Program-made: the position numbers and the translations under genes
Assembly: GCF_900110275.1 (NCBI RefSeq)
Contig: NZ_FODC01000002.1
Span: forward strand, 620,001-684,000
Reading direction: 5' to 3'
Length of the DNA stretch: 64,000 nucleotides
DNA from: Duganella sp. CF517
Lineage (GTDB): Bacteria; Pseudomonadota; Gammaproteobacteria; Burkholderiales; Burkholderiaceae_D
The notes under the pieces: generated by a model
The model's input: only the letters and a program-made list of their open reading frames with translations
What the model was told of the DNA's origin: nothing
Databases searched by the model: none
Shown: in pieces, positions 3,584 to 21,054 of the stretch
How positions within the stretch are numbered: the first letter of the stretch is position 1
Layout of the letters: each line of letters opens with the position of its first letter

Positions 3584-4660
3584 TCAGGGCCAGATGGCCT
3601 TGAGCACGGCGGCCAAATGGTAGCCGCCCCGGGTCAGCTGCGTCCTGGCGGCGGCCGAGGTCGGCACCGGATAATCGTCCGGCACCGACACCGGCCAGGT
3701 GTAGTAGACCGCGCCGGTGGTCTTGCTGGTCTGCGTGGACATGGCGCCCGGCACCACGCCGTCGTACGCCAGTTTGGATACCGCCAGCGCCTGTTCGGCC
3801 CATTGATAGGGCCAGCCGACCGGATCGCCGCTGTCGACGGCGACCGCAGGATTGGCCGCGATGACCAGCTTCGCGAATTGCTCCGGCGTGCGCGCGTCGA
3901 TGCGGCGGAAGGCGTAGTTCACCACCGAGCCGTCCCAATACGAATGTAGCGGGCGGGTAGTCCTGGGCGCGCGCGGCGGGCCGGGAGGATCGACGTTTTC
4001 GGCCTCTGGCGGCGGAATCAGGCGTCCACTGCTCTCGCCCAGTTTGACGTCGTCGAGCAGCAGGTTGTTGCCGCCCTGGGTGGCGAACGCCGCGCCGGCG
4101 TCGAGCTGCGCCTGCCCCGCCGGCACCACGAATCCGCCGTCCTTGCCGACATACGCTTCGCCCACGTGCAGCGGTTGCGCGATATCGCCGGTCAGATGGG
4201 TCAGAATCAGCAAAGCCTGGCGCGGCGTGAAGTTGCGCGGATTGCTGACCGAATCGCCCTTGCCCTGCAAAGTAACGATGCACTGCTTGAGCGTCTGCAC
4301 GATGTCGTCGTCTGCCGTCCCCACCGCGTGGTCGTGGTACTCGCTCAGCTGGAACGGCACGTTGGTGTAGTGGTACTCACTATGGCGGGGATTGGCCGCC
4401 ACATAGGCCTCCATCTCCGCCGTCTGCGGGCCGCAATAAGTCCCCTTGATGCAGTCCGCCCAGGTGGCGATCTTTTCCAGGCTCTCGCCGGGCAGCAGCA
4501 AGTCCCGCACGCGCTTTTCGGCGTTGCTGCCCATGATCAGTTGATCGGCGATGGCGCCGACCGCGCGGTGGCCGTCGTTGCCCCACGCCTGCGCGTCGGA
4601 GCAGACAAACGCGGAGGCGAAGGCGCCGCACACCGCCGCTACCACCAATAGCTTCTTCAT
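3584..4660 (-). CDS. Exported S1/P1-type zinc nuclease
   Basis: This is a 358-residue protein of the S1/P1 nuclease family, trinuclear zinc enzymes that cut single-stranded DNA and RNA and act as 3'-nucleotidases. The signal peptide ends at AQA-W, so the mature protein starts with Trp26, the N-terminal Trp that is itself a zinc ligand in this family. Other expected ligands are visible: His31 (WGNDGHRAVG), Asp69 (ATWAD), His97 (YHYTNVP), His155/Asp159 (HLTGDI), His165 (QPLHVG) and a late HSYWD. A Pro-rich loop (PPPEAENVDPPGPPRAPRT) precedes HSYWD. The ATG overlaps the stop of the upstream HKD-protein gene by 4 bp (ATGA), indicating translational coupling. The likely site of action is the periplasm or outside the cell. 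Confidence 0.93.
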   Translation of the reverse strand: MKKLLVVAAVCGAFASAFVCSDAQAWGNDGHRAVGAIADQLIMGSNAEKRVRDLLLPGESLEKIATWADCIKGTYCGPQTAEMEAYVAANPRHSEYHYTNVPFQLSEYHDHAVGTADDDIVQTLKQCIVTLQGKGDSVSNPRNFTPRQALLILTHLTGDIAQPLHVGEAYVGKDGGFVVPAGQAQLDAGAAFATQGGNNLLLDDVKLGESSGRLIPPPEAENVDPPGPPRAPRTTRPLHSYWDGSVVNYAFRRIDARTPEQFAKLVIAANPAVAVDSGDPVGWPYQWAEQALAVSKLAYDGVVPGAMSTQTSKTTGAVYYTWPVSVPDDYPVPTSAAARTQLTRGGYHLAAVLKAIWP

Positions 4661-5883
4661 TCCGCTTTGCCTTTGACCGGTTTTGGGTACTGCTTGTTGA
4701 TGTCGAGCGCCTGCGCGTACTGCGAGCTCCAGATCCGCTCCTGCGTGGCCGCCAGTCGCTGCGCCATTTTCTCGTTACGCATCACCACTTCCATATTACG
4801 CGACAAATCCATATAGCCGCCGGACCAGTTGCTGGTACCGACCCACGCGACCTGATTGTCGATCACCATGGTCTTGCTGTGGATGACGCGCGCGAACGGA
4901 ATGAAACCGCCCGACGCCGCCGGTATCGTCACCACGCGGATCTCCACGTTCGGCAGCATCGCCAGGCTTTTCAGATAGGCCTGCGCCGGTTGCTCCAGGT
5001 TCCAGTTGGAGACCATCAGCTTGATCTTGACGCCGCGATTGGCGGCGGCGCGCACCGCGTTGTCGATCACCGCGTAGTACGGGCGCGTGCCCTTCGGCCC
5101 ATAACTGAGCGGCGCGTACTCCAACAGCTGGATCCGCACTTCGCTTTTGGCGTCGGCCAGCAGCGCCGGCAAGCCGGACTCGGAGTCGCCGATGCCGGCC
5201 GGGTTATAGCGGTTCGGACTGGCCAGCAGGAAGGTCTCCTGGCGGTAGTTGGGTGCCGCCGTGATGGCGTTCAGCGCCGGCACCGCCGTGCCCTGCTCCG
5301 TCAGCGCCTGCGCGCGCCAGTCCTGGTTGAACACCGCCAGCACCTGGCCAACCAGCTTGGGATCGGTGATGCGCAGTCCCGTCTCGTGGATATGCTCGAA
5401 GGCGCGCCAGTCGAAGTTCTGGCTGCCGATGAAGGCCGTGGCGCCATCGACCACCATGTACTTGGCATGGATGATGCCGTTGCCGGTCAACTTGCTGAAA
5501 TCGAGCATGCGCAGTTCCAGGTTAGGAATCGCCCGCAACTGGTCCAAGGTCGGTTTCTCCGACAGGCCCAGGCCTTTTTGTTCGAGCAGGAAGCGGATCT
5601 TGACACCGCGCTTGCCGGCCGCCGCCAGGCGCTCGACGACCTTGTCGAACGCGCTGCCCGGCTTATTGACCGCGTAGAACTGGCCGATCACGATCTCGGT
5701 TTTGGCGTTGTCGAACATCTCGCTCCACACCGTCGCGGGATCGCGCAGGTCGTCGCTGCGCAGCGACGTTTCGACCGGCGCGGTTTGCACCAGTTCAAAG
5801 CCGGGGATGGAAAACTCGGCGCGCGCCGGCGCGGCGGAAGCCAGCAGCGTCGACACGGCGACGGAAAGTAAGGTACGACGCAT
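4657..5883 (-). CDS. Exported two-HKD phospholipase D-superfamily protein (PLD3/PLD4-like, probable nuclease)
   Basis: The protein has 408 residues with a signal peptide (cleavage near ARA-EFS). Two catalytic HKD motifs are intact: His139-Lys141-Asp146 (HAKYMVVDG) and His335-Lys337-Asp342 (HSKTMVIDN). Each is followed by the family's Gly-Ser/Thr-x-Asn segment: 'GSQNFDWRAFEHIHE' in the first half and 'GTSNWSGGYM' in the second. These segments recall animal PLD3/PLD4, which are 5' exonucleases on single-stranded DNA, more than cardiolipin synthases. Coupling to an S1/P1 nuclease also favours a nuclease role. That role is inference; a phospholipase activity is not excluded. A GGAG Shine-Dalgarno sits 8 bp before the ATG. 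Confidence 0.85.
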   Translation of the reverse strand: MRRTLLSVAVSTLLASAAPARAEFSIPGFELVQTAPVETSLRSDDLRDPATVWSEMFDNAKTEIVIGQFYAVNKPGSAFDKVVERLAAAGKRGVKIRFLLEQKGLGLSEKPTLDQLRAIPNLELRMLDFSKLTGNGIIHAKYMVVDGATAFIGSQNFDWRAFEHIHETGLRITDPKLVGQVLAVFNQDWRAQALTEQGTAVPALNAITAAPNYRQETFLLASPNRYNPAGIGDSESGLPALLADAKSEVRIQLLEYAPLSYGPKGTRPYYAVIDNAVRAAANRGVKIKLMVSNWNLEQPAQAYLKSLAMLPNVEIRVVTIPAASGGFIPFARVIHSKTMVIDNQVAWVGTSNWSGGYMDLSRNMEVVMRNEKMAQRLAATQERIWSSQYAQALDINKQYPKPVKGKAE

Positions 5884-5916: not shown

Positions 5917-7626
5917 TTACCGCAGGCGCCGGATGCGCTGCTGCGTCCCGGCCCTGCCGGCCGGCTTGCCCGCCTCCTCGCGCTTGACCAGGTAGGCGGT
6001 CAGCGCATCGACGGCGAGCACGCCCGTTTCGGCGCGGTTGCTGCCATTGGCGAACATCGGAAACGCATCGCCGCCTTCGGCCAGAAAGTTATTCACTATC
6101 ACGCGGTAGGACGACTCCCTCTGCAACGGCACGCCGTTCAGCGTCACGCTGTCGGGCAGCACCTTGCTGCCTTCGCCGCGTTTCGCATCCCACTGATAGG
6201 CGAAGCCGTCGGACACCTGCAGCAGCCCGCGCCACGAATCGCGCCCGCCGATCCACTGCTGTTCCAGCAGCTCGTGGATCTGCCAACCTTTAAGGTTCAT
6301 CGCCACCAGCTTGTTCCCGAACGGTAGCACCGCCTGCGCCTGGCCGACCGCGACACGGTTACCGGCGCCGCTTTCCAGGTCCCTGCGCATGCCGCCGTTG
6401 TTCATGAAGGCGATCTGCGCGCCGAACGGGCGTCCCGCCGCCAGCACCGAGTCGGCAACCAGGTCGCCCAGCGGCGACTCGCCGCCGTCATCGAGATCGC
6501 GCTCCACGCTGGGCACGGCCAGCGCCGCCACCGGACGCGCCAGTTGCGCCGCGCTGCGCTCGCGCGCCTTCTTCAGATACGCCTCGAGCGCTGGGTCGGC
6601 CGGCCAGGCACCCGGCACCATCACCTCCTGCGTGGCGCTGGCGTCGCGCAGCGTGTTGGTGGCGGTATCGATGCGCAGCTTGATGCGCGCCATCACGTGG
6701 CCGGCCGTATCGGACTGCGTCACCAGGCGGCCGTCCACCCGGCACAGATAGCCCTTGTGCGAGTGGCCGCTGACCACCACGCGGATCGCCGGATCGAGGC
6801 GTTTGACGACATCGACGACCGGGCCTTTCAGCTGCCCGCAATCGTGCTGGTCGAACTTCTCGACGGTGGTGCCGCCCTGGTGCAGCAGCACCACGAACAC
6901 GCCCACGCCCTGCTGGCGCAGTTCCGGCAACTGGCGGTTGATCGCGTCCGCCTCGTCGATGAATTCGAGGCCGGCGATGCCGGACGCCATCGAGGTTTCG
7001 GCGGTCTCGCGCAGCACGGTGCCGATGAAGGCCACCTTGACGCCATGCGCGGTCTCGATCTTGTAGGCCGGCAGGATCGGCTTGCGGGTGACCATGTCGA
7101 TCACGTTGGCGGCCAGATAACTGAATTTCGCGCCGGCGTAGTCCGGATCGAACTTGCAGGCCTTGTCGGCGCGCGGCGATTTGCAGCCGCCCTTCTGCTG
7201 GCGCAGCAGCTCGATGCGGCCGGCGTCGAATTCGTGATTGCCGACGGTGCTCGCGCGCAGTCCCAACAAATCCATCGCCGCCAAGGTCGGCTCGTCGGCC
7301 CACATCGACGAGATGGCCGGGCTGGCGCCGATCAAATCGCCGGCGCCGACCAGCAGCAGTTCCGGGTCCTGCTTGCGCCAGGCCCGCAGCGCCGCGCCCA
7401 GCGTATCGATACCGCCGGCCATCACCGTGCGCGCGTCGTCATGGCGCACGCTGTCGTACACGAATCGGCTCGGTTCGAGGTTGCCATGGAAGTCGTTGAG
7501 CGTGGCCAGTTGCACCTCGACGACGCCCGGCGGCAACGGTGGCGGTCCGAAGGCGCAGCCGCCGGACAAGGCCGCCAGCGCGCCCGCCAACACGGCGCCG
7601 GCGACGGAACTCAAAGGTTTAGTCAT
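5917..7626 (-). CDS. Exported 5'-nucleotidase / metallophosphatase (UshA-like)
   Basis: The protein has 569 residues. The N-terminus is hydrophobic and ends in SGGC, a slightly off-consensus lipobox, so it is either a lipoprotein or a periplasmic protein. The calcineurin-like metallophosphatase domain shows 'TLNDFHGNLEP', 'GAGDLIGASP', 'TVGNHEFDAG' and 'VVSGHSHKG'. The C-terminal 5'-nucleotidase domain follows (GESPLGDLVADS, 'FMNNGGMRRDLESG'). Family members dephosphorylate 5'-nucleotides, and some UDP-sugars, outside the cytoplasm. It lies 33 bp upstream of the HKD-protein gene on the same strand, forming a plausible three-gene operon (nucleotidase, HKD protein, S1/P1 nuclease) that turns nucleic acid into nucleosides. 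Confidence 0.9.
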   Translation of the reverse strand: MTKPLSSVAGAVLAGALAALSGGCAFGPPPLPPGVVEVQLATLNDFHGNLEPSRFVYDSVRHDDARTVMAGGIDTLGAALRAWRKQDPELLLVGAGDLIGASPAISSMWADEPTLAAMDLLGLRASTVGNHEFDAGRIELLRQQKGGCKSPRADKACKFDPDYAGAKFSYLAANVIDMVTRKPILPAYKIETAHGVKVAFIGTVLRETAETSMASGIAGLEFIDEADAINRQLPELRQQGVGVFVVLLHQGGTTVEKFDQHDCGQLKGPVVDVVKRLDPAIRVVVSGHSHKGYLCRVDGRLVTQSDTAGHVMARIKLRIDTATNTLRDASATQEVMVPGAWPADPALEAYLKKARERSAAQLARPVAALAVPSVERDLDDGGESPLGDLVADSVLAAGRPFGAQIAFMNNGGMRRDLESGAGNRVAVGQAQAVLPFGNKLVAMNLKGWQIHELLEQQWIGGRDSWRGLLQVSDGFAYQWDAKRGEGSKVLPDSVTLNGVPLQRESSYRVIVNNFLAEGGDAFPMFANGSNRAETGVLAVDALTAYLVKREEAGKPAGRAGTQQRIRRLR

Positions 7627-7782: not shown

Positions 7783-10700
7783 TTAGAATTCGTACTTCAC
7801 AGTCGCCTGGATGGCCCACTGCGATTCGCCCTTGTTCTGGCGAACGTCCAGCGATTCGACGTTGTCGCGCACCTTGTAGATGTAACGGCCGGCGGCGTCC
7901 AAACCAGCGAAGTCGACGAAGCTGCGGGCTTGGGCGCCAGCGGCCTGGAAGCCGACTTCGTTGATACGGCCCCACTTCTTGTTCAGCAGGTTGCCGAAGT
8001 TGAACAGGTCCAGCGTGAACGACGCCTTGTTGCCTTTGAACAGACCCGGGATCTCTTGCGCGATACGCAGATCGAAGGTGTTGGTCCAAGGCGAGAAGTC
8101 GCTGTTACGGTCGACGACGCGGCCTTTCGCATTACGCAGAACGCCATTGGCGTTGACGATCGACCAGAACTTGTTTTCGTTGGTCTTGTTGGTCGCGGTG
8201 TCGCCCAGGAACACCACCTGGCCCGAACCCGGCGCCGACGGAATGTACATCAGGTCGTTGCCGCCCAGGCCATCGCCGTTCAAGTCGTTGTTGATGGTCC
8301 AGCTGTATGGCTTGCCGGTGCGGCCTTCGTAGAACATGCCGAAGGTGGTCTTGTACGAACCGAAGAAACGCTTCTGGAAGTTGACCAGCGCGTTGATACG
8401 GTCTTTCACCAGATAGCTCGAGTTGGCGTTGACTTCCTCGTTCGGGTTGAACACCGAACGGCCGCTGTAGTTCGAGCTCGACGTCGACGACGTCAGGCCG
8501 GACACTTCCTTGGCATCGGTGTAGGTGTACGACAGCGACCAGCCGAAGCCGTTGGTCATCGGACGGCTCAGCGACGCGGTGGCCAGGTTGCTGCCGCCCT
8601 TGTCGGTCGCGGTGGCGACCAGCACGTTGTTGAAGCCGATGTTGCTGCCCGACTTGGTGCGCGCGGCGGCGCGGGCGGAGGTTGCCCCGCAGGTGGCGCC
8701 GGTGGTGGTCAGCGTACCGGTCGACGACCAGCAACGGGTATCGTAGGCGGCGTCGCTGTAGTACAGCTCACGGCCATCGGTACCGATGCGGGTGGCCGCG
8801 CCCAGGTTCAGGTTGCGGTAGTAGATGCCGTCCTTGACCTTGGTGTTCATGTACTCCAGGCCCAGCACCAGGCCGTACCATGGCAGTTCGGTGTCGAAGG
8901 CGATGTTCGATTTCCACACCGACGGCTGCTTCAGGCCCGGCGCCAGGGCGTCGACGTTCAACTGGGCGGTGCTGGTGCCGCCGCTCAGCGTGGTCGGCTG
9001 CTTGGTGATGTCCGGCGTGAAGGTGCCGCCGACGTTCGGGCAGGCCCGGGTCGAGGCGCTGCAGCTGATGCTGGAGGTGGCCACGCCAGGGTTGGAGAAC
9101 GGATTCGACAGCCACACGGTGGCGGCCGCGCCCTGGAACAAGCCGGCGCCGCCGCGGATTTGCATCTTGCGCACGGTGTCGAAGCTGTAGTTGAAGCCGG
9201 CGCGCGGCTGCCAGACATTCTGGCCGTCGAAGGTGACGGTGTTGTCCAGGCCGAAGCCGCCGGTCTGACGGTTGTCGGTGGCGCCGCTGGCGGCGACAGC
9301 GGCTTGCGCGACGCGGGTATTGAGCAGCGGACGGTCGTTCATGCGGGTGGCGTCCAGGCGCACGCCGTAGCTGACGGTCAGTTGCGGCGTGACGCTCCAG
9401 GTGTCTTGCAGGAACAGGCCGTAGTTCTTCATGCTGAAGCTCGACACGGCGCTGTCGAGCGAGAATCCATTGTTCGGCGTTTGCAACGTGTACGACGATG
9501 GACGGCCGATGCGGAAGTTCTCCAGCACGGCGGCCTGCATGTTGGCGTTGTTGCCGCAGTCGGTCAGCGTGCCGCCGCCCAGGAACGCGTAGTTCCAGTT
9601 CTGCACGCACGAGAACGTGTAGTTGCCCCAGATGTTCTGCAGGAAGGCGTTGTAGACATCGTTCTTGCTGTAGTCCGAGCCGAACTTGACTTCGTGATCG
9701 CCCAGCGACCAGTTGGCGCCCGCGTAGGCGTCCTTGGTCTTGGTGCCGAGGATGTTGCGGTGGCGGCTGTTATCGGTACCGAACGACAGCGTGCGGGCGG
9801 CGGTCGACACCGTCGACGGCGTGCCGGCCGGATTGGCGCCGGTGAACGACAGGTTCATCAGCGGCAGCGCGGAGTTCAGCGACGGCGTGCTGTCGTAGTC
9901 GCGCGACGACACTTTCACCTCGGTCGAGAAGGTCGGGCTCCAGTCGGCGGTCCACTGGCCGACCAGCGTCTCGATGACTTTCTCTTGCGAGAACCATTCC
10001 GAGTTGAGCGACAGGCCGGTGGCCGACATGCCGGTGAATTGCGGCTCCGCCTGCTTGGTCTTCGAGTAGCGGAACATGGCGCGGTGGTTGTCGTTGATGT
10101 TCCAGTCGACCTTGACCAGGCTATCGTCGACGGTCAGCTGGGAACCGGCCGACATCGACGAATCGCCGATGTTGATGCCATACGTGTTCTTGGCGATATC
10201 GGTGGCGCTGGCGATGGCCGCCGGCGTGATGCCGACGTTGGTCAGCGAACTGCCCAGCGGGCCGAACGATGGCGCGTTGCGGGTCGATTCCAGTTTCTCG
10301 TAGGCGGCGAACAGGAACAGCTTGTCCTGGATCAGCGGCAGACCGACGGTCGCGCCCTTGGTCGTTTCCTTGAACGGCGCCGGCTTGGAGTAGGTGTCGG
10401 TGGAGGCGTTGTAGCGATCGCCGGCCATGCTGTCGTTACGGAACACGTAGTAGACGCTGCCCTTGACGGTGTTGGTGCCGGACTTGGTGACCGCGTTGAT
10501 ATTGCCGCCGGTGTAGCCCTTTTGCGTGACGTCGTAGTTGGCGACGTTGACCTGCACCGACTGGATCGCTTCGATCGAGATCGGCTGCTTGGCGGTCGGG
10601 CTGCCGTTCGACTCCAGGCCGAACGTATCGTTGACGGCCACGCCGTCGATGGTCAGCGAGTTGTAGCGCGAGTTCTGGCCGGCGACGGACATCTCGCCGC

Positions 10701-11226
10701 GCTCCTTGTCGGTCTGCGACACGCGCGGATCGGCACGGGCATAGTCTTGCAGGTTGCGGTTGATCGAACCCTGGATCGCCAGTTCGGTGGCGCTGATGCT
10801 GGTGCCGGCGCCCATGTTGGTTTTGTTGAAGCGCTCCGAGCGGCCACCGGCGGTGCCGGCGATGGTCACGGTTTGCATCGAGCCGCCCAGGGTCGCGTCG
10901 ACCGTGGCGGTTTCCGCCAGTTGCGTGAAGACGCCTTCGCGTTTTTCCACAACGCCGTCTTTGGTGATCGTGATCGTGTACGGACCGCCGGTACGCAGAC
11001 CGCGCTGGACGTAACGGCCCTCGGCGTCGGTCACGATGTTGGTCACGGTACCGGATTCGGTATGGACGATGGTAACGGTCGCGCCCGCTGCTGGCTTGCC
11101 GTCGGCCACCGAGATGCGGCCGCCGATGGCCGACGTCGTGTTCTGTGCAAAGGCCGGTGCCGCCGCGAGCGCGATAGACAGGCTGAGCGCTATTTGCGTC
11201 AGCTTGAGCCGTTTATGATTGATCAT
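7783..11226 (-). CDS. Oar-like TonB-dependent outer-membrane receptor with carboxypeptidase-regulatory-like domain
   Basis: I start this 1147-residue protein at 11226 (MINHKRLKLTQ), because that begins a clear signal peptide ending at AFA-QN. An open frame extends 90 codons further upstream but has no signal-like content. After the signal comes a beta-sandwich domain (GGRISVADGKPAAGATVTIV), then a TonB plug ('NSRYNSLTIDGVAVNDTFG', 'GGNINAVTKSGTN') and a very large beta-barrel ending in a terminal Phe (ATVKYEF). This resembles the Oar subgroup, whose substrates are mostly unknown. It lies between the nucleotidase operon and adenosine deaminase, so import of nucleic-acid breakdown products is possible, but nothing in the sequence proves it. 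Confidence 0.9.
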   Translation of the reverse strand: MINHKRLKLTQIALSLSIALAAAPAFAQNTTSAIGGRISVADGKPAAGATVTIVHTESGTVTNIVTDAEGRYVQRGLRTGGPYTITITKDGVVEKREGVFTQLAETATVDATLGGSMQTVTIAGTAGGRSERFNKTNMGAGTSISATELAIQGSINRNLQDYARADPRVSQTDKERGEMSVAGQNSRYNSLTIDGVAVNDTFGLESNGSPTAKQPISIEAIQSVQVNVANYDVTQKGYTGGNINAVTKSGTNTVKGSVYYVFRNDSMAGDRYNASTDTYSKPAPFKETTKGATVGLPLIQDKLFLFAAYEKLESTRNAPSFGPLGSSLTNVGITPAAIASATDIAKNTYGINIGDSSMSAGSQLTVDDSLVKVDWNINDNHRAMFRYSKTKQAEPQFTGMSATGLSLNSEWFSQEKVIETLVGQWTADWSPTFSTEVKVSSRDYDSTPSLNSALPLMNLSFTGANPAGTPSTVSTAARTLSFGTDNSRHRNILGTKTKDAYAGANWSLGDHEVKFGSDYSKNDVYNAFLQNIWGNYTFSCVQNWNYAFLGGGTLTDCGNNANMQAAVLENFRIGRPSSYTLQTPNNGFSLDSAVSSFSMKNYGLFLQDTWSVTPQLTVSYGVRLDATRMNDRPLLNTRVAQAAVAASGATDNRQTGGFGLDNTVTFDGQNVWQPRAGFNYSFDTVRKMQIRGGAGLFQGAAATVWLSNPFSNPGVATSSISCSASTRACPNVGGTFTPDITKQPTTLSGGTSTAQLNVDALAPGLKQPSVWKSNIAFDTELPWYGLVLGLEYMNTKVKDGIYYRNLNLGAATRIGTDGRELYYSDAAYDTRCWSSTGTLTTTGATCGATSARAAARTKSGSNIGFNNVLVATATDKGGSNLATASLSRPMTNGFGWSLSYTYTDAKEVSGLTSSTSSSNYSGRSVFNPNEEVNANSSYLVKDRINALVNFQKRFFGSYKTTFGMFYEGRTGKPYSWTINNDLNGDGLGGNDLMYIPSAPGSGQVVFLGDTATNKTNENKFWSIVNANGVLRNAKGRVVDRNSDFSPWTNTFDLRIAQEIPGLFKGNKASFTLDLFNFGNLLNKKWGRINEVGFQAAGAQARSFVDFAGLDAAGRYIYKVRDNVESLDVRQNKGESQWAIQATVKYEF

Positions 11227-11843: not shown

Positions 11844-13319
11844 CTAGCGCGCCGCCTTGCTTTGCGACGCAGCAATTTCCGCTTCAAATTTGCTGAACTT
11901 GCCGTCCAAGCCCTTCAACAGCCGCTGTTTGTCGGCGTCGGCGAGGAAGGAATACCGGATGCTGTCGTACGACAGTTTTTTAACTTCCGCATATGTCGGC
12001 TGATAACGGGCCGCGTACAACACGAATTCGCCGGACAGGTTATTGCGCGACACGCCGGCGTCGTCGGTCGACAGCACGAACGGCACGCCATATTGCCGGT
12101 ACAGGGTGACCGGATGCGCGGCGCCCTTCACACCCAAAATAAAGTCGTTACTACTGAGGTTGACCTCGACCGGAATCTGTCGATCACGCATTTTTTTCAT
12201 GATCTGCAGCGGATTGGTCTCGTGGGCGATGTCCATGCCGTGGCCGATGCGGCTGGCGCCGGCGACGTCGATGGCGTCGCGGATGTGGAAGGTCAGGCCT
12301 TCCGGCGGCACCATGCCCAGCGACAGCTCGCCGGCGTGCAGCGCCAGTTTCACCTTCGGATACTTCGTCTTCAGGAATTTAAACATCTGCATGTGCATCG
12401 CATAGTCGCGCATCGACACGTGGACGCTCTCCTGGCCGACGATGTTGACGCCGACGATCATCGGGCTGGAGGACGCCAGCTTAAAGCTCGACACCATCTG
12501 CGAGAACACCTGCGACGGCGACAGGAAGCGCAGCGCGAACGGCTGGTAGCGCATCGTGAAGTCGGCGTCGTCGATGCCGGCGCCGGAGGTCTTGACGTTG
12601 TCCAGGTAGGCGGCGATCCAGCCCTGGTAGGCCTTGTCGTCCTGCAGTTTGGCGCTGAAGGCGGCCAGGTCGGCGTCGGTCACGCCGCCGGCGAGGGCTT
12701 TGTCGTCGAAGGCCTTGTCCTGCGCGATCGGCGCGATCTCGTAGATGGTCTCGATGTAGCTCAGGTTTTCCTGGATCGCGCGCTGCTTGAGCGTCTTCAG
12801 GCCTTCGGCCGCGTTGGTCGACGCGACCGGCGTGAAGTAGCCGAAGGTATCGAAGAACTGGCGGTCCGGCGGCGATTGGATCGCGCTATGGTTGTAAAAG
12901 TCCTTGTCCGACCATTTTTGCAGCAGGTTGGCCAGTACCGTGTTGTCCTGCAAAATATCCTGGCCGGACAGGCACGCGCGCTCGGCCAGCGGCTTGGCGC
13001 GCTCGCTGGCGACGGTCTCCTTGGTCTTGTCGATCATGAAGCTGGTCTTGTTGACGCAGTAGCCCTCCTTGTCCACCCACTCCAGATACTGCTCGGCGTA
13101 GATCGCGCCGGAATAATGGTGGTGCAGATCGCCGCCCTTGGGCATCATCGTAAAGAACATCGTCAGCTCGGCCAGTTTCGGCTCCTTGCCCGAAACCAGC
13201 GAGGCGAAGTGGCGCTTGACGATGTCCTCGTTGCTGGCCGCGTGCGCGCCTTGCGGCATGGCGCAGAACACGGCGGCGGCGAGGGCGACGGCCTTCAGGC
13301 TGGCGATATTTTTTTGCAT
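11844..13319 (-). CDS. Exported adenosine deaminase-family protein
   Basis: This 491-residue protein converts (deoxy)adenosine to (deoxy)inosine if it acts like its family. Visible metal and catalytic motifs are 'GDLHHHYSGAIYAE' (about residues 63-76), 'LHAGE', 'IGHGMDIAHETNP' and 'STDDAGVSRNNLSGEF'. Classical bacterial Add is cytosolic and about 330 residues long. This one is much longer and has a signal peptide (residues 1-27, ending GAHA), so it should act in the periplasm or outside, as the secreted ADA2/ADGF group does. It is the last gene of the leftward purine operon, 41 bp after guanine deaminase. Confidence 0.87.
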   Translation of the reverse strand: MQKNIASLKAVALAAAVFCAMPQGAHAASNEDIVKRHFASLVSGKEPKLAELTMFFTMMPKGGDLHHHYSGAIYAEQYLEWVDKEGYCVNKTSFMIDKTKETVASERAKPLAERACLSGQDILQDNTVLANLLQKWSDKDFYNHSAIQSPPDRQFFDTFGYFTPVASTNAAEGLKTLKQRAIQENLSYIETIYEIAPIAQDKAFDDKALAGGVTDADLAAFSAKLQDDKAYQGWIAAYLDNVKTSGAGIDDADFTMRYQPFALRFLSPSQVFSQMVSSFKLASSSPMIVGVNIVGQESVHVSMRDYAMHMQMFKFLKTKYPKVKLALHAGELSLGMVPPEGLTFHIRDAIDVAGASRIGHGMDIAHETNPLQIMKKMRDRQIPVEVNLSSNDFILGVKGAAHPVTLYRQYGVPFVLSTDDAGVSRNNLSGEFVLYAARYQPTYAEVKKLSYDSIRYSFLADADKQRLLKGLDGKFSKFEAEIAASQSKAAR

Positions 13320-13360: not shown

Positions 13361-14671
13361 TCAAGTCGAGGCGCGGGCGTGCACCTTGCGGCCGGCGGAA
13401 TACGTCGCCGCGATGGCGCGGTCGTCGCCCAGCAGCGCCAGGGCGAACAGCAGCTCCTCCAGGCTTTCGATCCGGTCGGTGCGCCGCCGCAGCAGCGGCG
13501 TGGCCTGCGGGTCGACGACGATGAAGTCGGCCTCCGCGCCGGCGCTGAAATTGCCGATCGTGCCTTCGAGCTGCATGCTGCGCGCCGCGCCCAGCGTGGC
13601 CAGGTAGAACATCCGCAAAGCCGGCAGATAACTGCCGCCCAAGCGCGCTACTTTATAGGCTTCATTCATGGTTTGCAACATCGAGAACGAGGTGCCGCCG
13701 CCGACGTCCGTCGCCAGCGACAGCGGCACGCCGGCCTGGTCGGCGCGCTCGAAGTCGAACAGGCCGCTGCCGAGGAACAGGTTGGAGGTCGGGCAGATGG
13801 CGGCGGCGGAACTGGTTTCGGCCATGCGCTCGCGGTCGCGCGCATCGAGCCAGATGCAGTGGCCGTACATCGCGCGCGGGCGCATCATGCCGTAGCTGTC
13901 GTAGACGTCGATGTAGCTGCGCGACTTGGGGAACAGTTCGCGCACCCACGCGCATTCGGCTTCGTTCTCCGACACGTGGGTCTGGATGAAGGTGTCCGGG
14001 TAGGCCCGCGCCAGTTCGCCGGCCAGGTGCAGCTGCTCCTCGGTGGAGGTGGGCGCGAAGCGCGGCGTGATCGCGTACAGCGAGCGGCCGTGGTTGTGCC
14101 AGCGCCGGATCAGCGCCTCGGTGTCGCGGGCGCTCGATTCGGCCGTGTCGCGCAGGTAGTCGGGGCAGTTCCGGTCCATCATCACCTTGCCGGCGACCAT
14201 GCGCAGGCCGCGCTGTTCGCTGGCGGTGAAGAAGGCGTCCACCGATTGCGGGTGCACGCTGCAATAGACCATGGCGGTGGTGGTGCCGCAGCGCAGCAGC
14301 TCGTCGAGGAAGAAGTCGGCCACGCCGGCGGCGTGCGCCGGGTCGCCGAATTTGCTCTCGACCGGGAAGGTGTAGGTCTCCAGCCAGGGCAGCAGGCCCT
14401 CGGCCGGCGAGGCGATCATGTCGGTTTGCGGATAGTGGACGTGGGTGTCGATAAAGCCGGGCATCAGCAGCTTTCCGCTGTAGTCGTGCACTTCGGTTCC
14501 CGGCGGCAGGGTCGCGTGCAGCGTGGCGTAGTCGCCGGCCGCCTGGACTTTGCCGTCGGCGACGATCAGCAAGCCGTCCTCGTACCAGTCGTGCGACTGG
14601 TCGCTGAAGGCCGGGTCGGCGAGGAAGTGGAGCAAGCTACCCCGGTAGGCTTGCAGGTCTTGGTTCGACAT
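13361..14671 (-). CDS. guaD: Guanine deaminase
   Basis: The protein has 436 residues from the ATG at 14671 (MSNQDLQ), which has a GAGAG site just upstream; an in-frame TTG lies four codons earlier. It is an amidohydrolase with the GuaD pattern: 'MPGFIDTHVHYPQTDMI' (metal-binding HxH), 'QTHVSENEAECAW', 'MYGHCIWLD' and 'SLATDVGGGTSFSML'. The cytosolic enzyme hydrolyses guanine to xanthine and ammonia, feeding the xanthine dehydrogenase encoded just upstream. It is separated from xdhC by a REP-like inverted repeat. Confidence 0.95.
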   Translation of the reverse strand: MSNQDLQAYRGSLLHFLADPAFSDQSHDWYEDGLLIVADGKVQAAGDYATLHATLPPGTEVHDYSGKLLMPGFIDTHVHYPQTDMIASPAEGLLPWLETYTFPVESKFGDPAHAAGVADFFLDELLRCGTTTAMVYCSVHPQSVDAFFTASEQRGLRMVAGKVMMDRNCPDYLRDTAESSARDTEALIRRWHNHGRSLYAITPRFAPTSTEEQLHLAGELARAYPDTFIQTHVSENEAECAWVRELFPKSRSYIDVYDSYGMMRPRAMYGHCIWLDARDRERMAETSSAAAICPTSNLFLGSGLFDFERADQAGVPLSLATDVGGGTSFSMLQTMNEAYKVARLGGSYLPALRMFYLATLGAARSMQLEGTIGNFSAGAEADFIVVDPQATPLLRRRTDRIESLEELLFALALLGDDRAIAATYSAGRKVHARAST

Positions 14672-14703
14672 AGGTTCTCTCAAAAATTTCGTGGTTCCAC
14701 GTA

Positions 14704-14789
14704 GGGCGGATTAGGCGGAACGCCGTAATCGGCCGTCGATTGGGCGTCGGCGGCGCCGGCATGGCCGATTACGCTGCGCTAATCCGCCC
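14704..14789. repeat. REP-like imperfect inverted repeat
   Basis: Two arms of about 30 bases, 14704-14734 and 14763-14789, pair around a GC-rich centre. The outer ends are GGGCGGATTAG and CTAATCCGCCC, and the inner ends are CGTAATCGGCC and GGCCGATTACG. This looks like the GTAGGGCGGATTAG-type extragenic repeats scattered through many proteobacterial genomes. It lies between xdhC and guaD and contains the last codons and the stop of xdhC. A related single arm may occur at 34039-34054. Confidence 0.75.
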
Positions 14790-15785
14790 CGCGCGATCCT
14801 GATTCAACGCGACGCTCTGCTGCGCTTCCCACACGATCAGCAACTGGGCGCAGACGGAGGCCGCGATCGCGGCGGGCAGCTTGTTCGTGATGCCGGCCAG
14901 GCCGATCGGACAAACCATGGCGTCGATGCGGTCCCGCGGCAGGCCGCGCGCGGCCATCCTGCGTTCGAACTGCACCCGCTTGGTCTTGGAGCCGATCAGG
15001 CCAAACCAACCGACGTCGGGGCGCGCCAAAATCGCTTCGCTCAACCGCTGATCGAGCTCGTGGCTGTGGGTCATCACCAGGTAACTGGCGTCGGCCGGCG
15101 CGCCGGCGACCAGCGCCTCCGGCGTATCGGTCGCTTCGATCGTCACGTTGGCTGGTATCGTCGACGGGAACATATCCTCCCGCTCGTCGATCCAGGTTAC
15201 GGTGCACGGCAGCTCGCCCAGCATGCGGACGATGGCCGCGCCGACATGGCCCGCGCCGAACAATAGCAGATGCGCGCGCGGCGCCAGGCACGGGTCGGCG
15301 AGCCAGCGACGCCCGGCAGCGTCTTTCAATACATGCGTGCCGCGCGTGCGGTCGACCAGTGGCGCGCGCTCGCCCTGCCCCGCCACCGTCCTGCCATCGG
15401 CATCCAGCAGCAGCGCGGCGGACGGACCGTCGATGGCGCTCAGGCGCCAGCTCTCTTCGCGACGGCGACTTCTTAAACTCTCCAGCACCGCGCGCAGCGA
15501 AGCATCGACCAACTCGAACGCCAGGTGCACCACGCCGCCGCAGCACTGGCCCAAGGTCGGGCCGAGCGCATAGCGCTCCAGCCGCGCCGCAACCCCGCCG
15601 TCCAGCATCCGGCGCGCCACCTCGACCGCGCACATTTCCAGATGCCCGCCGCCGATGGTGTCGACCTGGCCTTGCGCCGTCACCAACATCTTGGCGCCCG
15701 GCTCGCGCGGACCGGAACCTTCGACGATGGCCACCGTCACCAGCACCGCCGGTTGCGTGATCCGCGCTGTCAGCCACTCGTTCAC
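14769..15785 (-). CDS. xdhC: XdhC, molybdenum-cofactor insertion factor for xanthine dehydrogenase
   Basis: The protein has 338 residues. The first codon is GTG, immediately after the xdhB stop (TAA then GTG), so it is translationally coupled. Visible features are the XdhC N-terminal motif 'GSGPREPGAKMLV', 'TIGGGHLEMCAVE', a central 'GPTLGQCCGGVVHL', and a C-terminal Rossmann-like domain (LLLFGAGHVGAAI; 'GLIGSKTKRVQFERRM'). XdhC binds sulfurated Moco and loads it into XdhB. Its last residues (GRISAA) and stop codon are encoded by the REP-like repeat, so the C-terminus may have been altered by that element. Confidence 0.95.
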   Translation of the reverse strand: MNEWLTARITQPAVLVTVAIVEGSGPREPGAKMLVTAQGQVDTIGGGHLEMCAVEVARRMLDGGVAARLERYALGPTLGQCCGGVVHLAFELVDASLRAVLESLRSRRREESWRLSAIDGPSAALLLDADGRTVAGQGERAPLVDRTRGTHVLKDAAGRRWLADPCLAPRAHLLLFGAGHVGAAIVRMLGELPCTVTWIDEREDMFPSTIPANVTIEATDTPEALVAGAPADASYLVMTHSHELDQRLSEAILARPDVGWFGLIGSKTKRVQFERRMAARGLPRDRIDAMVCPIGLAGITNKLPAAIAASVCAQLLIVWEAQQSVALNQDRAGRISAA

Positions 15786-18149
15786 TTAAGCCGCCATTTC
15801 CACTGCGGATACCGCGCGCAGTATCTCTTCGCTGGTCGCCGGCGCGTTCAGCGGCGGATTGACGCGATGGCCGCCGACGCTGGAAATCGCATCGCGGATC
15901 GCGAAGAACACCGAGAACGGCAGCAGCAGCGGCGGTTCGCCCACCGCCTTGGAGCGGTGGATGCTGTCCTCGACGTTGCCGTTGTCATACAGCGTGACGC
16001 GGAAGTCCTCGGGGCAGTCGGACACGCCGGGAATCTTGTAGGTCGACGGCGCGTGCGTCATCAGCTTGCCGGCCGGGTTCCACCACAGCTGCTCGGTGGT
16101 CAGCCAGCCCATGCCCTGGATGAAAGCGCCCTCCACCTGGCCGATATCGATGGCCGGATTGAGCGAGCGGCCGGCGTCGTACAACGCATCCGCGCGCAGC
16201 AGCTTCCACTCGCCGGTCAAGGTGTCGACCACCACCTCGGACACGGCGGCGCCGTAGGCATAATACGAGAACGGATGGCCGTTCATCGTCTTCGGGTCCC
16301 AGTGCAGGCCGGGCGTGGCGTAGAAACCGTCGGACCACAGCTGCACCCGCGCCAGATACGCCTTCTGCACCAGCTCCGGAAACGGTACGACGTGACCGTT
16401 CACGTGCACGGCGTTGTCGAAGAACCGCACCGGCTGGCCGTCCTCGTCGCCATACAGTTTGACCGCGTAGGCGGCCAAGCGCTCGCGGATCTGGCGCGCG
16501 GCGTCCTGCGCCGCCTTGCCGTTCAAATCCGCGCCGGTCGATGCCGCCGTCGCCGAGGTGTTCGACACCTTGCTGGTATCGGTCGCCGTCGCGCGCACGT
16601 GCTCCATGTCCACGCCCAGTTCATGCGCCACCACCTGCATCACCTTGGTGTTGATGCCTTGCCCCATCTCCGTGCCGCCATGGTTGACCAGTACCGAGCC
16701 GTCCACATACACGTGCACCAGCGCGCCGGCCTGGTTCAGGTGGGTGACGTTGAAGGCGATGCCGAATTTGAGCGGCGTCAGCGCCAGCCCTTTCTTCAGC
16801 ACCGGGCTGTTCGCGTTGTAAGCGTCGATGGCCTTGCGGCGCGCGCGGTATTCGCTGGTTTGCTCCAGCTCCGCCGTCAGCGCCTCGATCACGTTGTCGA
16901 CGATCTCCTGGCCGTAAGGCGTGACATTGCGCTCGGTCTTGCCATAGAAATTCAGGCGGCGGATGTCGAGCGCGTCGCGGCCAAGGTTGCGGGCGATTTC
17001 ATCGATCACGTATTCGATGGCGATGGCGCCCTGCGGGCCGCCGAAGCCACGGAAGGCGGTGTTCGATTGCGTGTTGGTCTTGCCGCAGGCGGCGCGGATG
17101 TCGACGTCCGACAAATAATAGGTATTGTCGAAGTGGCAGACGGCACGCGTGGCCACGGGCCCCGACAAGTCGGCCGAATAGCCGGCGCGCAGGGTCATGT
17201 CGACCTTCGCTGCGAGGATCTTGCCGTTGTCGTCGTAGCCGACTTCGTATTCGTAGAAGAAGCAATGGCGCTTGCCGGTGACGAGCATGTCGTCGTCGCG
17301 GTCGGCGCGCAGCTTGACCGGCCGGCGCAGCTTGGCGGCGGCGATGCCGGCGGCGGCGGCCCACAACGCCGATTGCGACTCCTTGCCGCCGAAACCACCG
17401 CCCATGCGGCGGCACTCGACCTGCACCTTGTGCGAATGCACGCCGATCGCATGGGCGACCACGTGCTGCATCTCGCTCGGATGCTGGGTCGAGCACTGCA
17501 CCAGCATGCCGTTGTCCTCCTTCGGGATCGCGTAGGCGATCTGGCCCTCCAGGTAGAACTGCTCCTGGCCGCCGACGAACAACTGGCCCTTGACCACGCG
17601 CGGCGCCGTGTCGAAGGCGGCCTGGAATTCCCCGCGCTTGAGCCGCATCGGCGGCAGCACATACGATTGCGCGGACTTGGCTTCCTGCGGCGTGAAGATC
17701 GCCGGCAGCTCGTCGTAATCGACGACGGCGCGGCGCGCGGCGCGGCGGGCGTTGTCGTGCGTGTCGGCGACGACGATGAAGATCGGCTGGCCGACGTACA
17801 TCACCTCCTCCACGCAGAAAATCGGATCATCGTGGATGATCGGCCCGCAGTCGTTGGTGCCGACGATGTCGCCGGCGGTGTAGACCGCCACCACGCCGGC
17901 CGAAGCGCGCACCGGCGCCAGGTCGATCGCGGTGATGCGCGCGTGCGCCTTCGACGACAGGCCCAGCGCCGCGTGCAAGGTGCCTTGCAGCTCGGGGATG
18001 TCGTCGGTGTACGTGGCCTGGCCGAGCACGTGCAGCTCGGCCGATTCATGCGGACGGGCGACGCCGACGGCTTTCCACGCCTCGGCGGCGGCGGCCTTGG
18101 CGGCGTCCAACGCGGTGGTCGCAAGTTCGGGAGCGGCTGGATGGTTCAT
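15786..18149 (-). CDS. xdhB: Xanthine dehydrogenase, molybdopterin-binding subunit
   Basis: The 787-residue catalytic subunit carries the usual motifs: 'VLGQATYTDDIPELQG' at the start, 'RRMGGGFGGKESQ' and 'AFRGFGGPQGA' for the cofactor pocket, 'GGTEMGQGINTK', and 'KAVGEPPLLLPFSVFFA', which contains the catalytic Glu of the VGEPP motif. It oxidises hypoxanthine to xanthine and xanthine to urate. A strong AAAGGAG site precedes the ATG. The gene lies 11 bp after xdhA and abuts xdhC, a classical xdhABC order. Confidence 0.97.
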   Translation of the reverse strand: MNHPAAPELATTALDAAKAAAAEAWKAVGVARPHESAELHVLGQATYTDDIPELQGTLHAALGLSSKAHARITAIDLAPVRASAGVVAVYTAGDIVGTNDCGPIIHDDPIFCVEEVMYVGQPIFIVVADTHDNARRAARRAVVDYDELPAIFTPQEAKSAQSYVLPPMRLKRGEFQAAFDTAPRVVKGQLFVGGQEQFYLEGQIAYAIPKEDNGMLVQCSTQHPSEMQHVVAHAIGVHSHKVQVECRRMGGGFGGKESQSALWAAAAGIAAAKLRRPVKLRADRDDDMLVTGKRHCFFYEYEVGYDDNGKILAAKVDMTLRAGYSADLSGPVATRAVCHFDNTYYLSDVDIRAACGKTNTQSNTAFRGFGGPQGAIAIEYVIDEIARNLGRDALDIRRLNFYGKTERNVTPYGQEIVDNVIEALTAELEQTSEYRARRKAIDAYNANSPVLKKGLALTPLKFGIAFNVTHLNQAGALVHVYVDGSVLVNHGGTEMGQGINTKVMQVVAHELGVDMEHVRATATDTSKVSNTSATAASTGADLNGKAAQDAARQIRERLAAYAVKLYGDEDGQPVRFFDNAVHVNGHVVPFPELVQKAYLARVQLWSDGFYATPGLHWDPKTMNGHPFSYYAYGAAVSEVVVDTLTGEWKLLRADALYDAGRSLNPAIDIGQVEGAFIQGMGWLTTEQLWWNPAGKLMTHAPSTYKIPGVSDCPEDFRVTLYDNGNVEDSIHRSKAVGEPPLLLPFSVFFAIRDAISSVGGHRVNPPLNAPATSEEILRAVSAVEMAA

Positions 18150-18160
18150 GATGGCTCCTT

Positions 18161-19630
18161 TCAGGCGCGGCAGGCGAAGGCGTTGACGGCATCGGCCGCG
18201 AGCGGCGCGTCGGCGCGGGTCTCGAACCAGAAGCGGCGCAGCAGGTTTTGCGCCGTCTGCATGCGATAGGTACTGGAGGCGCGCATGTCCGACAGCGGCG
18301 CGAAGTCCCGCGCCAGCATGTCCATCGCCACGCGCAGATTGGCCTCGTTCCAGCGCAGCCCAATCAGCGAGGACTCGGCACGCGGCGCGCGGCGCGGGGT
18401 GGCGGCCATGCCGCCGAAAGCGATGCGGGCGTCGACCACGACGTCGCCATCGAGCTTGAACGCGAACGCGGCGCAGACGGCGGAGATATCCTGGTCGAAG
18501 CGTTTGGCCAGCTTATAGGTGCGGAATGCGATCCCGGCGCGCGGCAACGGCACCCGCACGGCGACGACCAATTCGTCCGGCCGCATATCCTTTTTTTGAT
18601 AATCGAGGTAGAAGGCCTCCAGCGGCAGCACACGCCGGCCGGACGCGCTTTGCAGCACCACTTCGCTACCGAGCGCGATCATCCACGGCATCGAATCGCC
18701 GATCGGCGAACCGTTGGCGACATTGCCGCCCAGCGTGCCGGCGTTACGGATCGGCAGGGATGCGAAGCGCTGGCGCATCTCGCCCAGCTGCGACGGATAC
18801 CGTTCCGCCAGCGCCTGATACGCCTCGTCGAGCGAGACGCCGGCGCCGATTTCCAGCATGCCGTCTTTCTCGCCCATGGTTTGCAGCGCGGTGACGTGAC
18901 CAAGGTAGATGATGTCGCCCAGCTCGCGCATCTGTTTGGTGACCCACAGGCCGATATCGGTGGAACCGGCCAGCAGCGTCGCCTTCGGATGCGCGGCGCG
19001 CAGGGCCACCAACTCCTCGAGCGTGCGCGGCGCGTGGAAGCTCTGGCCGTGCGCGGTGTAGCTGGCGCCGGCGTCGCGCCGCAAGCCGCGCAATTGCTCC
19101 GCCAGGGCTTCGCGGTCGAAGCCGACCTTGGGCAGCTCCGTCATGCGGTGCGCGGCATCGATGATGGGGCGGTAGCCGGTGCAGCGGCACAGGTTACCGG
19201 ACAGGCAATCGTCGATTTCCTTGCGCTGCGCAGGCTGGCCGTCCTTGTCGAGATACATGCCCCACAGCGACATGACGAAACCGGGCGTACAGAAGCCGCA
19301 TTGCGAGCCGTGACATTCGACCATCGCCTGCTGTACCGGATGCAGCGCGCCGTCGGCCTGCTGCAAATCCTCGACCGTGAACAGCGCCTTGCCGTCCAGC
19401 GTGGGCGCGAACTGGATGCAGGAGTTCACGGACTTCATCTCCAGCTGGCCGCTGGCGTTCAGGCTGCCGACGACGACCGTGCAGGCGCCGCAATCGCCCT
19501 CGGCACAGCCTTCCTTGGTGCCGGTGCAATGCAGGTCTTCGCGCAGGTGCTGCAGCACGGTGCGCGTCGGCGCGGCGTTGGTGATCTCCTGGACCGCGCC
19601 ACGGAAATAAAAACGAATCGGTTCGGACAT
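18161..19630 (-). CDS. xdhA: Xanthine dehydrogenase, iron-sulfur and FAD subunit
   Basis: The protein has 489 residues from the ATG at 19630 (MSEPIRFYFRG); an in-frame TTG six codons upstream is less likely. The plant-type 2Fe-2S cluster motif is 'CAEGDCGACTVVVG', and the second 2Fe-2S domain shows 'CGFCTPGFVMS' and 'CRCTGYRPI'. The FAD-binding domain follows (LLAGSTDIGLWVTKQ; 'NAGTLGGNVANGSPIGD'). It passes electrons from the molybdenum centre of XdhB to NAD+. It starts 7 bp after the puuE stop, so puuE-xdhA-xdhB-xdhC are very probably one transcript. Confidence 0.97.
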   Translation of the reverse strand: MSEPIRFYFRGAVQEITNAAPTRTVLQHLREDLHCTGTKEGCAEGDCGACTVVVGSLNASGQLEMKSVNSCIQFAPTLDGKALFTVEDLQQADGALHPVQQAMVECHGSQCGFCTPGFVMSLWGMYLDKDGQPAQRKEIDDCLSGNLCRCTGYRPIIDAAHRMTELPKVGFDREALAEQLRGLRRDAGASYTAHGQSFHAPRTLEELVALRAAHPKATLLAGSTDIGLWVTKQMRELGDIIYLGHVTALQTMGEKDGMLEIGAGVSLDEAYQALAERYPSQLGEMRQRFASLPIRNAGTLGGNVANGSPIGDSMPWMIALGSEVVLQSASGRRVLPLEAFYLDYQKKDMRPDELVVAVRVPLPRAGIAFRTYKLAKRFDQDISAVCAAFAFKLDGDVVVDARIAFGGMAATPRRAPRAESSLIGLRWNEANLRVAMDMLARDFAPLSDMRASSTYRMQTAQNLLRRFWFETRADAPLAADAVNAFACRA

Positions 19631-19637
19631 CGTGGTC

Positions 19638-20591
19638 TCAATCTGCAAATGGGTGTGTGGCGTGCCAGTGATCGGCGATATCGATGCGGCGCGTGATCCA
19701 GACCTTGTCGTGCCCCTGCACGTAGTCGAGGAAGCGCGCCAGCGACGCCGCCCGCGCCGGCCGCCCGGCGATACGGCAGTGCAGACCGATCGACAGCATC
19801 TTCGGCTGGTTCAAGCCATTCGGATCGCCCTCCGCGTACAGCACGTCGAAGGCGTCCTTCAGGTAGTCGAAGAATTGCGTGCCGGAGTTGAAGCCCTGCG
19901 CGGCGGCGAAGCGCATGTCGTTGGTGTCCAGCGTGTACGGCACGATCAGCTGCGGCGCCGTCGCGGCCTTGCCGCCGGCGTCCGTGTAGCCGACCTTTTG
20001 CCAGAACGGCAAGTCGTCGCCGTAGTGGTCGGAATCGTAGCGGAAGCCGCCGTGCTCCACCACCAGCCGGCGCGTATTGGGCGAATCGCGGCCGGTGTAC
20101 CAGCCTTGCGGCGCGCTACCCGTCAGTTCGCGGATGATATCGACCGCTTCCTTCATGTGCGCGCGCTCGGTCGCCTCGTCCATGTTTTGGTAGGTGATCC
20201 AGCGCAGGCCGTGGCAGGCGATTTCGTGGCCCAGCGACTGGAACGCGGCCACCGCCTCCGGATGCCGCTTGAGCGCCATCGACACGCCGAACACCGTCAG
20301 CGGCAGCTTGCGCTCCTCGAACATGCGCAGCAGGCGCCACAGACCGGCGCGCGAGCCGTACTCGTACAGCGATTCCATGCTCATGTGGCGGTTGCTGAAC
20401 GAGGCGGCGCCGATGATCTCGGACAGAAATGTTTCCGATCCGGCATCACCGTGCAGCACGTTGTTTTCGCCGCCCTCCTCGTAGTTCAGCACGAATTGCA
20501 GGGCCACCCGGGCCTGGTTCGGCCACTGGGCGTGGGGCGGTTTCGGCCCGTAGCCGATCATGTCGCGCGGATAGTTGTCGTAAGTGGTCAT
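19638..20591 (-). CDS. puuE: PuuE-type (cofactor-independent) allantoinase
   Basis: The protein has 317 residues from the ATG at 20591 (MTTYDNYPRDMIGYG), which fits the family N-terminus (YPRDxIGYG). In-frame ATGs at 20630 and 20648 would add only an atypical leader. The fold is the polysaccharide-deacetylase type, with 'LNYEEGGENNVLHGD', 'MSMESLYEYGSRAG', 'EIACHGLRWI', 'GWYTGRDSPNTRRLV', 'PYTLDTNDMRF' and 'IGLHCRIAGRP'. PuuE hydrolyses allantoin to allantoate without a metal, unlike AllB. It is the first gene of the leftward purine operon and is divergent from 5-hydroxyisourate hydrolase. Confidence 0.95.
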   Translation of the reverse strand: MTTYDNYPRDMIGYGPKPPHAQWPNQARVALQFVLNYEEGGENNVLHGDAGSETFLSEIIGAASFSNRHMSMESLYEYGSRAGLWRLLRMFEERKLPLTVFGVSMALKRHPEAVAAFQSLGHEIACHGLRWITYQNMDEATERAHMKEAVDIIRELTGSAPQGWYTGRDSPNTRRLVVEHGGFRYDSDHYGDDLPFWQKVGYTDAGGKAATAPQLIVPYTLDTNDMRFAAAQGFNSGTQFFDYLKDAFDVLYAEGDPNGLNQPKMLSIGLHCRIAGRPARAASLARFLDYVQGHDKVWITRRIDIADHWHATHPFAD

Positions 20592-20700
20592 GGGCGCCGG
20601 CAAGTCGATGGGGAATATATCTGTAATCATATATGCGTAGGCCGTCATCGGTATATGATTTGTACAATAGATACTTATGACGTACACATATAGGACAACC
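20592..20700. promoter_or_regulatory. Divergent control region of the purine operon and 5-hydroxyisourate hydrolase
   Basis: This is a 109-bp AT-rich spacer between two divergent urate-pathway genes. It contains the perfect 8-bp palindrome TTGTACAA (20660-20667), and a second GTACA at 20682-20686 gives a looser dyad TGTAC...GTACA. Palindromes like this suit a GntR- or MarR-type repressor, but no regulator gene adjoins it. An AGGA site at 20692-20695 serves the rightward gene. Promoter boxes are not clear enough to place. Confidence 0.45.
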
Positions 20701-21054
20701 ATGGGCAAGCTCAGTACGCACGTTCTCGACATCACGCAAGGCAAGCCGGGGGCCGGCGTCAAGGTGGCGCTGTACGCCGTCGGCGCACAGGGGCGCACCC
20801 TGATCAAAACCGACGTCACCAACGCCGACGGCCGCTGTTCGGCGCCGCTGCTCGAGGGCGAGACCATGAAGGCCGGAAAGTATGAGCTGGTGTTCGGCGC
20901 CGGCGACTATTTCGCCGCGCAGGGGGTCGAGCTGCCGGAGCCGCGCTTTATCGACGAGGTGACCATCGCTTTCGGCGTGGCCGGCGCGGAGCAGAATTAC
21001 CATGTGCCGCTGGTGGTGTCGCCGTGGGCGTATTCGACGTATCGGGGCAGTTGA
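20701..21054 (+). CDS. uraH: 5-hydroxyisourate hydrolase (transthyretin-like)
   Basis: The protein has 117 residues from the ATG at 20701, with AGGA six bases upstream; in-frame codons before it are not family-like. It begins 'MGKLSTHVLDITQGKPG' and ends in YRGS, the C-terminal signature of HIU hydrolases that separates them from transthyretin. 'GRCSAPLLEG' and 'YHVPLVVSPWAYSTYRGS' match the active-site strands. It hydrolyses 5-hydroxyisourate, the urate oxidase product, to OHCU. There is no signal peptide, so it acts in the cytosol. Confidence 0.96.
   Translation: MGKLSTHVLDITQGKPGAGVKVALYAVGAQGRTLIKTDVTNADGRCSAPLLEGETMKAGKYELVFGAGDYFAAQGVELPEPRFIDEVTIAFGVAGAEQNYHVPLVVSPWAYSTYRGS

Follow-up and report, generated by a model that had tools for sequence, protein, structure and literature searches.

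The window, that is, the whole stretch of 64,000 nucleotides of the soil-type bacterium Duganella sp. CF517 that was analysed, carries on its minus strand a co-directional run of genes for most of the steps that lead from nucleic acids to the breakdown of allantoin (Table 1). Read from upstream, the order is PuuE, XdhA, XdhB, XdhC, guanine deaminase, adenosine deaminase, the Oar-like receptor, the 5'-nucleotidase (NT5), a protein with two HKD motifs of the phospholipase D type (PLD), and an S1/P1-type nuclease. The 5'-nucleotidase gene precedes the PLD gene by 33 bp. Scans for sigma-70 promoters and terminators across the locus stayed near chance level, so the limits of the operon rest on spacing and conservation.

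Table 1. Features of the PLD locus, in coordinates of the window.
Feature	Coordinates	Strand	Evidence
TorF-type putative porin	2610-3419	(-)	
Exported S1/P1-type nuclease, 358 aa	3584..4660	(-)	PF02265 1.9e-25; alignment to solved S1/P1 nucleases 8qjl, 3w52
Stop/start overlap of the PLD and S1/P1 genes, ATGA, 4 bp	4657..4660	(-)	sequence
Exported two-HKD PLD, PLD3/PLD4-like	4657..5883	(-)	ORF ATG to TGA, 408 aa; two PLDc_2 (PF13091) stretches, 1.6e-41
Exported 5'-nucleotidase / UshA-like metallophosphatase	5917..7626	(-)	PF02872 2.6e-36, PF00149 4.7e-7; NCBIfam nucleotidase models below cut-off
TonB-dependent, Oar-like outer-membrane receptor	7783..11226	(-)	PF25183 3.8e-57, PF13620 5e-14; start taken as ATG at 11226
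Adenosine deaminase, signal-peptide-like N-terminus	11844..13319	(-)	PF00962 7.4e-21; TIGR01430 below cut-off
Guanine deaminase	13361..14683	(-)	TIGR02967 3.9e-179, over cut-off
Xanthine dehydrogenase XdhC, XdhB, XdhA	14769..19648	(-)	TIGR02964, TIGR02965, TIGR02963, all over cut-off
Allantoinase PuuE	19638..20867	(-)	TIGR03212 3.3e-156, over cut-off

The PLD gene is real. An earlier reading made from the sequence only had described a two-HKD protein at this position and quoted the segments that follow its motifs, and both segments were confirmed: HAKYMVVD is followed by GSQNFDWRAFE, and HSKTMVID by GTSNWSGGYM. In residue numbers, the first motif comprises H139, K141 and D146, with GSxNxDWR at 153-160, and the second H335, K337 and D342, with GTSNW at 349-353. 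The N-terminus resembles a signal peptide (MRRTLLSVAVSTLLASAAPARA before the apparent cleavage site and EF after it, judged by eye without a predictor). Homologues with 60-83% identity occur in other genera, and of the 47 related loci in which S1/P1 adjoins PLD, 40 show the same overlap of the two genes; neither the ORF nor the overlap can therefore be put down to chance. The coupling of the two genes, also part of the sequence-only reading, was in this way borne out both by the four shared bases and by the conservation of the operon.

The S1/P1 ORF scores 90.6 bits against PF02265, for which the gathering score is 29.5. It has in common with its family this domain, the N-terminal Trp of the mature protein (start predicted at W26, as in S1/P1 nucleases) and the metal-ligand motifs THLTGDIAQPLH and PLHSYWD, as aligned to solved S1/P1 nucleases. 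However, it is a distant member, weakly similar to characterised nucleases (the best solved one scores 33 bits), and has a proline-rich stretch near residues 210-235. Downstream of S1/P1 lies the gene for the TorF-type putative porin, which is also found in some relatives at varying distance.

Neighbours of the PLD gene in related genomes

Of 145 genomes of the same family, 34 have PLD and 38 have S1/P1. The 5'-nucleotidase adjoins PLD in 24 of the 34 PLD-bearing genomes and adjoins S1/P1, either directly or with PLD between, in all 38 genomes that have it. The NT5-PLD-S1/P1 triple is present in 18 genomes, NT5-PLD without S1/P1 in six, and an NT5-S1/P1 pair without PLD between in 20 (for instance, G400, G408 and G450). 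By these counts, the nucleotidase has PLD, S1/P1 or both attached to it, and the 20 genomes with the bare pair imply that PLD was gained or lost at that spot. The presence of PLD and that of S1/P1 are associated in a Fisher test over the 145 genomes (p 2.6e-5), a value that ignores kinship and is descriptive only.

At the level of the phylum the PLD family is patchy, with members in 11 of 398 sampled genomes. Some Collimonas-like genomes carry the order ExbD, TonB receptor, ExbB, nucleotidase and PLD, and others the same order without the nucleotidase. PLD follows ExbD, TonB receptor and ExbB in Herbaspirillum, Pseudomonas and enteric relatives, without an adjoining nucleotidase or nuclease. 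The neighbour genes in these loci were called by a simple composition score, by which single small genes may be missed and by which PLD itself was missed in several loci. A TonB receptor is a second recurrent partner of PLD, and its type differs from that of the Oar-like receptor of the window. Loci with the ExbD-TonB receptor-ExbB-PLD order were seen at L043, L093, L069, L097 and L098. A phytase-like esterase (PF13449) is encoded near PLD at L098:7534-8910, in an enteric genome close in the tree to SpPLD, the solved bacterial protein described below, and hints at the use of phosphate esters there. It is possible that the Pseudomonas and enteric relatives, which are without the nucleotide genes, act on other substrates.

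Kinship of the window PLD

In a sequence search of the PDB, the best match of the window PLD was 7e0m (518 bits), the structure of SpPLD from Serratia plymuthica AS9, which was deposited as a phospholipase D and is the nearest solved relative. It was followed by PLD3 (115 bits), vaccinia K4 (106) and PLD4 (105), and lipid PLDs other than vaccinia F13 were absent from the matches at E up to 1. A profile built from an alignment of 39 family members and run against the PDB sequences gave the same groups: 627 bits for 7e0m, 195-214 for PLD3, 202 for K4, 192 for PLD4 and 109 for F13. NucT scored 41.5 bits, and Streptomyces-type PLDs, human PLD1/2 and other lipid PLDs scored at most 29 bits, over local stretches only.

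The predicted structure, an AlphaFold model of the monomer with a pLDDT of 91.5, ranks the relatives similarly. Its Z-scores are 63.7 with 7e0m, 44-46 with PLD3 and PLD4 (352-368 residues), the comparison that the sequence-only reading had proposed for PLD3, and 42-43 with F13. Outside this group the values fall to 28-29 for phosphatidylserine synthase and 24-28 for lipid PLDs, which have the same superfamily fold. Foldseek agrees with this ranking. In a tree, a 100/100 split separates 23 family members, together with two PLD3 sequences and one partial PLD4 sequence, from E. coli ClsA/B/C and from two Cls-like proteins encoded in the Duganella genome itself; the Cls branches in this sample are long, Cls-type proteins are the sole outgroup, and K4 and F13 were left out.

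The structure of PLD3 with ssDNA reports contacts by H201, K203, N218, H416, K418 and N432 and, around the first nucleoside, by Y126, D220 and Y411 (PMC10783504). By alignment, the former correspond to H139, K141, N156, H335, K337 and N352 of the window PLD, and the latter to Y70, D158 and F330. All of these contact residues are kept in 23 family members, with Phe or Tyr at position 330; PLD4 also has Phe where PLD3 has Tyr411. In the Cls proteins the position of Y126 is occupied by Ile, and that of Y411 lacks an aromatic residue. A deeper branch of the family (L100:465-1610 and L101:9235-10440, one of them in a 1.5-Mb genome) is 36-38% identical to the window PLD and retains every one of the PLD3 contacts, but reads GTGN where the window PLD has GTSN.

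Taken together, the profile, the tree, the structural model and the residues of the active site place the window PLD with PLD3/PLD4 and vaccinia K4/F13, not with the cardiolipin synthases or the lipid PLDs. The sequence-only reading had likened the protein to PLD3/PLD4 more than to cardiolipin synthases, a placement among which would have spoken against it. The tree sets the protein apart from the latter, and all four lines of evidence agree on the closer kinship with PLD3, PLD4 and K4, that with K4 coming from the profile and not from the tree. Two things lie beyond that reading: the solved bacterial relative SpPLD and the wider set of purine genes around PLD.

Proposed function and alternatives

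The window PLD is most likely an exported PLD3-type phosphodiesterase that trims single-stranded nucleic acid for scavenging; its nuclease activity and 5' direction are what we infer. Nucleic acids are its probable main substrate, and the full picture of a 5'-exonuclease at work in scavenging is more tentative.

The name given to SpPLD implies another function, that of a true phospholipase D or transphosphatidylase that scavenges phospholipid head groups or phosphate. The PDB name of 7e0m is 'Phospholipase', and in other lineages PLD has as neighbours not nucleotide genes but TonB systems and, in one case, a phytase-like esterase. Moreover, the structural clade includes a phospholipase, F13 (PMC11879855), so clade alone neither fixes the substrate nor proves nuclease activity. 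We nevertheless consider a lipid substrate unlikely: with the profile, lipid PLDs reach at most 29 bits as compared to 195-214 for PLD3, their Z-scores are 24-28 as compared to 44-46, and the context in the window is purine and nucleotide use. The label of SpPLD is based on family and structure, not on an assay in its paper, which describes nuclease-like motifs, a missing lipid gate loop and a loop whose charges do not suit acyl chains, and which asks at its end whether SpPLD hydrolyses nucleic acids (PMC8004604).

The adjoining 5'-nucleotidase, the phytase-like esterase in one relative and the export signals on the enzymes would also suit a general phosphodiesterase of the phosphorus-starvation (Pho) regulon, active on several phosphodiesters including nucleic acids. 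This appears quite improbable, since the upstream run of purine deaminases, Xdh and PuuE speaks for the use of carbon and nitrogen rather than of phosphate alone, and Pho-box-like sites do not exceed shuffled expectation: the best one upstream of the window operon matches 10 of 14 positions (8-11 in shuffles), and those upstream in 15 relatives match 8-10 of 14, with nothing above shuffles. Matches to DrmC below cut-off (100.5 bits in NCBIfam, where the cut-off is 133, and also in PADLOC) would suggest a defence or DNA-processing PLD of the DISARM kind. However, the window PLD has two HKD domains and an export signal, it lies among salvage genes, and the neighbours examined include no recognised DISARM gene; this identity is very improbable and was rejected, the match being explained by the common HKD domain. 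A cardiolipin synthase, to which an NCBIfam bac_cardiolipin score of 64.5 bits (far below the cut-off of 290) would point, is hardly credible for an exported protein that differs in its contact residues, is split 100/100 in the tree from E. coli ClsA/B/C and from the Cls-like proteins of its own genome, and coexists there with separate genes for the latter.

Read as a PLD3-type nuclease, the single-chain exported PLD would act on single-stranded nucleic acid, hydrolysing its phosphodiester bonds most likely from the 5' end, and the operon would scavenge extracellular or periplasmic DNA and RNA. By analogy to PLD3, the two HKD motifs would form one metal-free active site, in which one His would give a phospho-histidine intermediate and the other would activate water. 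The terminal nucleoside would be held by Y70, D158 and the aromatic F330, as it is by Y126, D220 and Y411 in PLD3.

Cuts by S1/P1 enzymes leave 5'-phosphates, and 3'-nucleotidase activity is also known for these enzymes. Since a 5'-phosphate blocks PLD3 (PMC8497607), a plain relay in which the endonuclease feeds the exonuclease is doubtful, and the products of S1/P1 would not be direct substrates of PLD if the bacterial enzyme behaves like PLD3. A division of labour between the two fits better, and we propose it here. PLD may take 5'-OH ends and release 3'-nucleotides, which the 3'-nucleotidase activity of S1/P1 could dephosphorylate, and cutting by S1/P1 would yield 5'-nucleotides to be dephosphorylated by the 5'-nucleotidase. 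Use of the purines would then fall to adenosine deaminase, which is exported, and to guanine deaminase, xanthine dehydrogenase and allantoinase in the cytosol. With some hesitation, we extend this proposal to the bacterial branch of the PLD3/PLD4 clade as a whole, including the crystallised 'phospholipase': its members may be exported nucleic-acid exonucleases of nucleic-acid-feeding systems, where PLD, as the maker of 3'-nucleotides, and S1/P1, as the maker of 5'-nucleotides and a 3'-nucleotidase, would attack different ends and share phosphatases.

The bacterial family is filed as 'phospholipase', but its members are more likely nucleases by which bacteria feed on DNA and RNA. In the literature searched, we found no measured activity of bacterial members of the PLD family, no paper naming both PLD3 and 7E0M, no mention of bacterial relatives in the two PLD3 structure papers, and nothing relevant on operons for TonB systems or nucleic-acid feeding that contain a PLD. 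A nuclease function would settle what the authors of SpPLD asked and put right the names of the bacterial genes at present called phospholipase D, and the window PLD is a likely addition to the enzymes with which bacteria grow on environmental DNA and RNA. A simple model enzyme would also come from a bacterial sister group that has the PLD3 contact residues and a solved member; as an exported protein, it should express easily.

Comparison with known relatives

PLD3 and PLD4 are animal lysosomal 5'-3' exonucleases of ssDNA and ssRNA and are linked to disease. The window PLD has in common with them 25-27% identity over the whole domain, the fold (Z 44-46), every residue reported to contact ssDNA, a pair of HKD motifs in a single chain and a destination in an extracytoplasmic compartment. 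In contrast to these type II membrane proteins, it is a soluble exported protein encoded in a bacterial operon, and its second HKD motif has Asp where PLD3 (E423) and PLD4 have Glu.

The nicking-joining enzyme K4 and the envelope phospholipase F13 of vaccinia fall in the clade of the window PLD by profile (202 and 109 bits). F13 also has its fold (Z 42-43), in a comparison that did not include the K4 structure. Both viral proteins have been proposed to derive from a captured PLD3-like gene, K4 having kept nuclease activity and F13 having gained phospholipase activity (PMC11879855).

SpPLD is far closer, with 60% identity over 383 residues, a Z-score of 63.7 at an rmsd of 1.0 A, the same GS/GT motifs and contact residues, and export in common with the window PLD. 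Unlike the window, the genomes closest to SpPLD in the tree carry ExbD, TonB receptor, ExbB and PLD without an adjoining nucleotidase or S1/P1. Set beside these relatives, the window PLD represents a bacterial, exported and operon-borne branch of the PLD3/PLD4 clade, and the one solved member of this branch is filed as a phospholipase.
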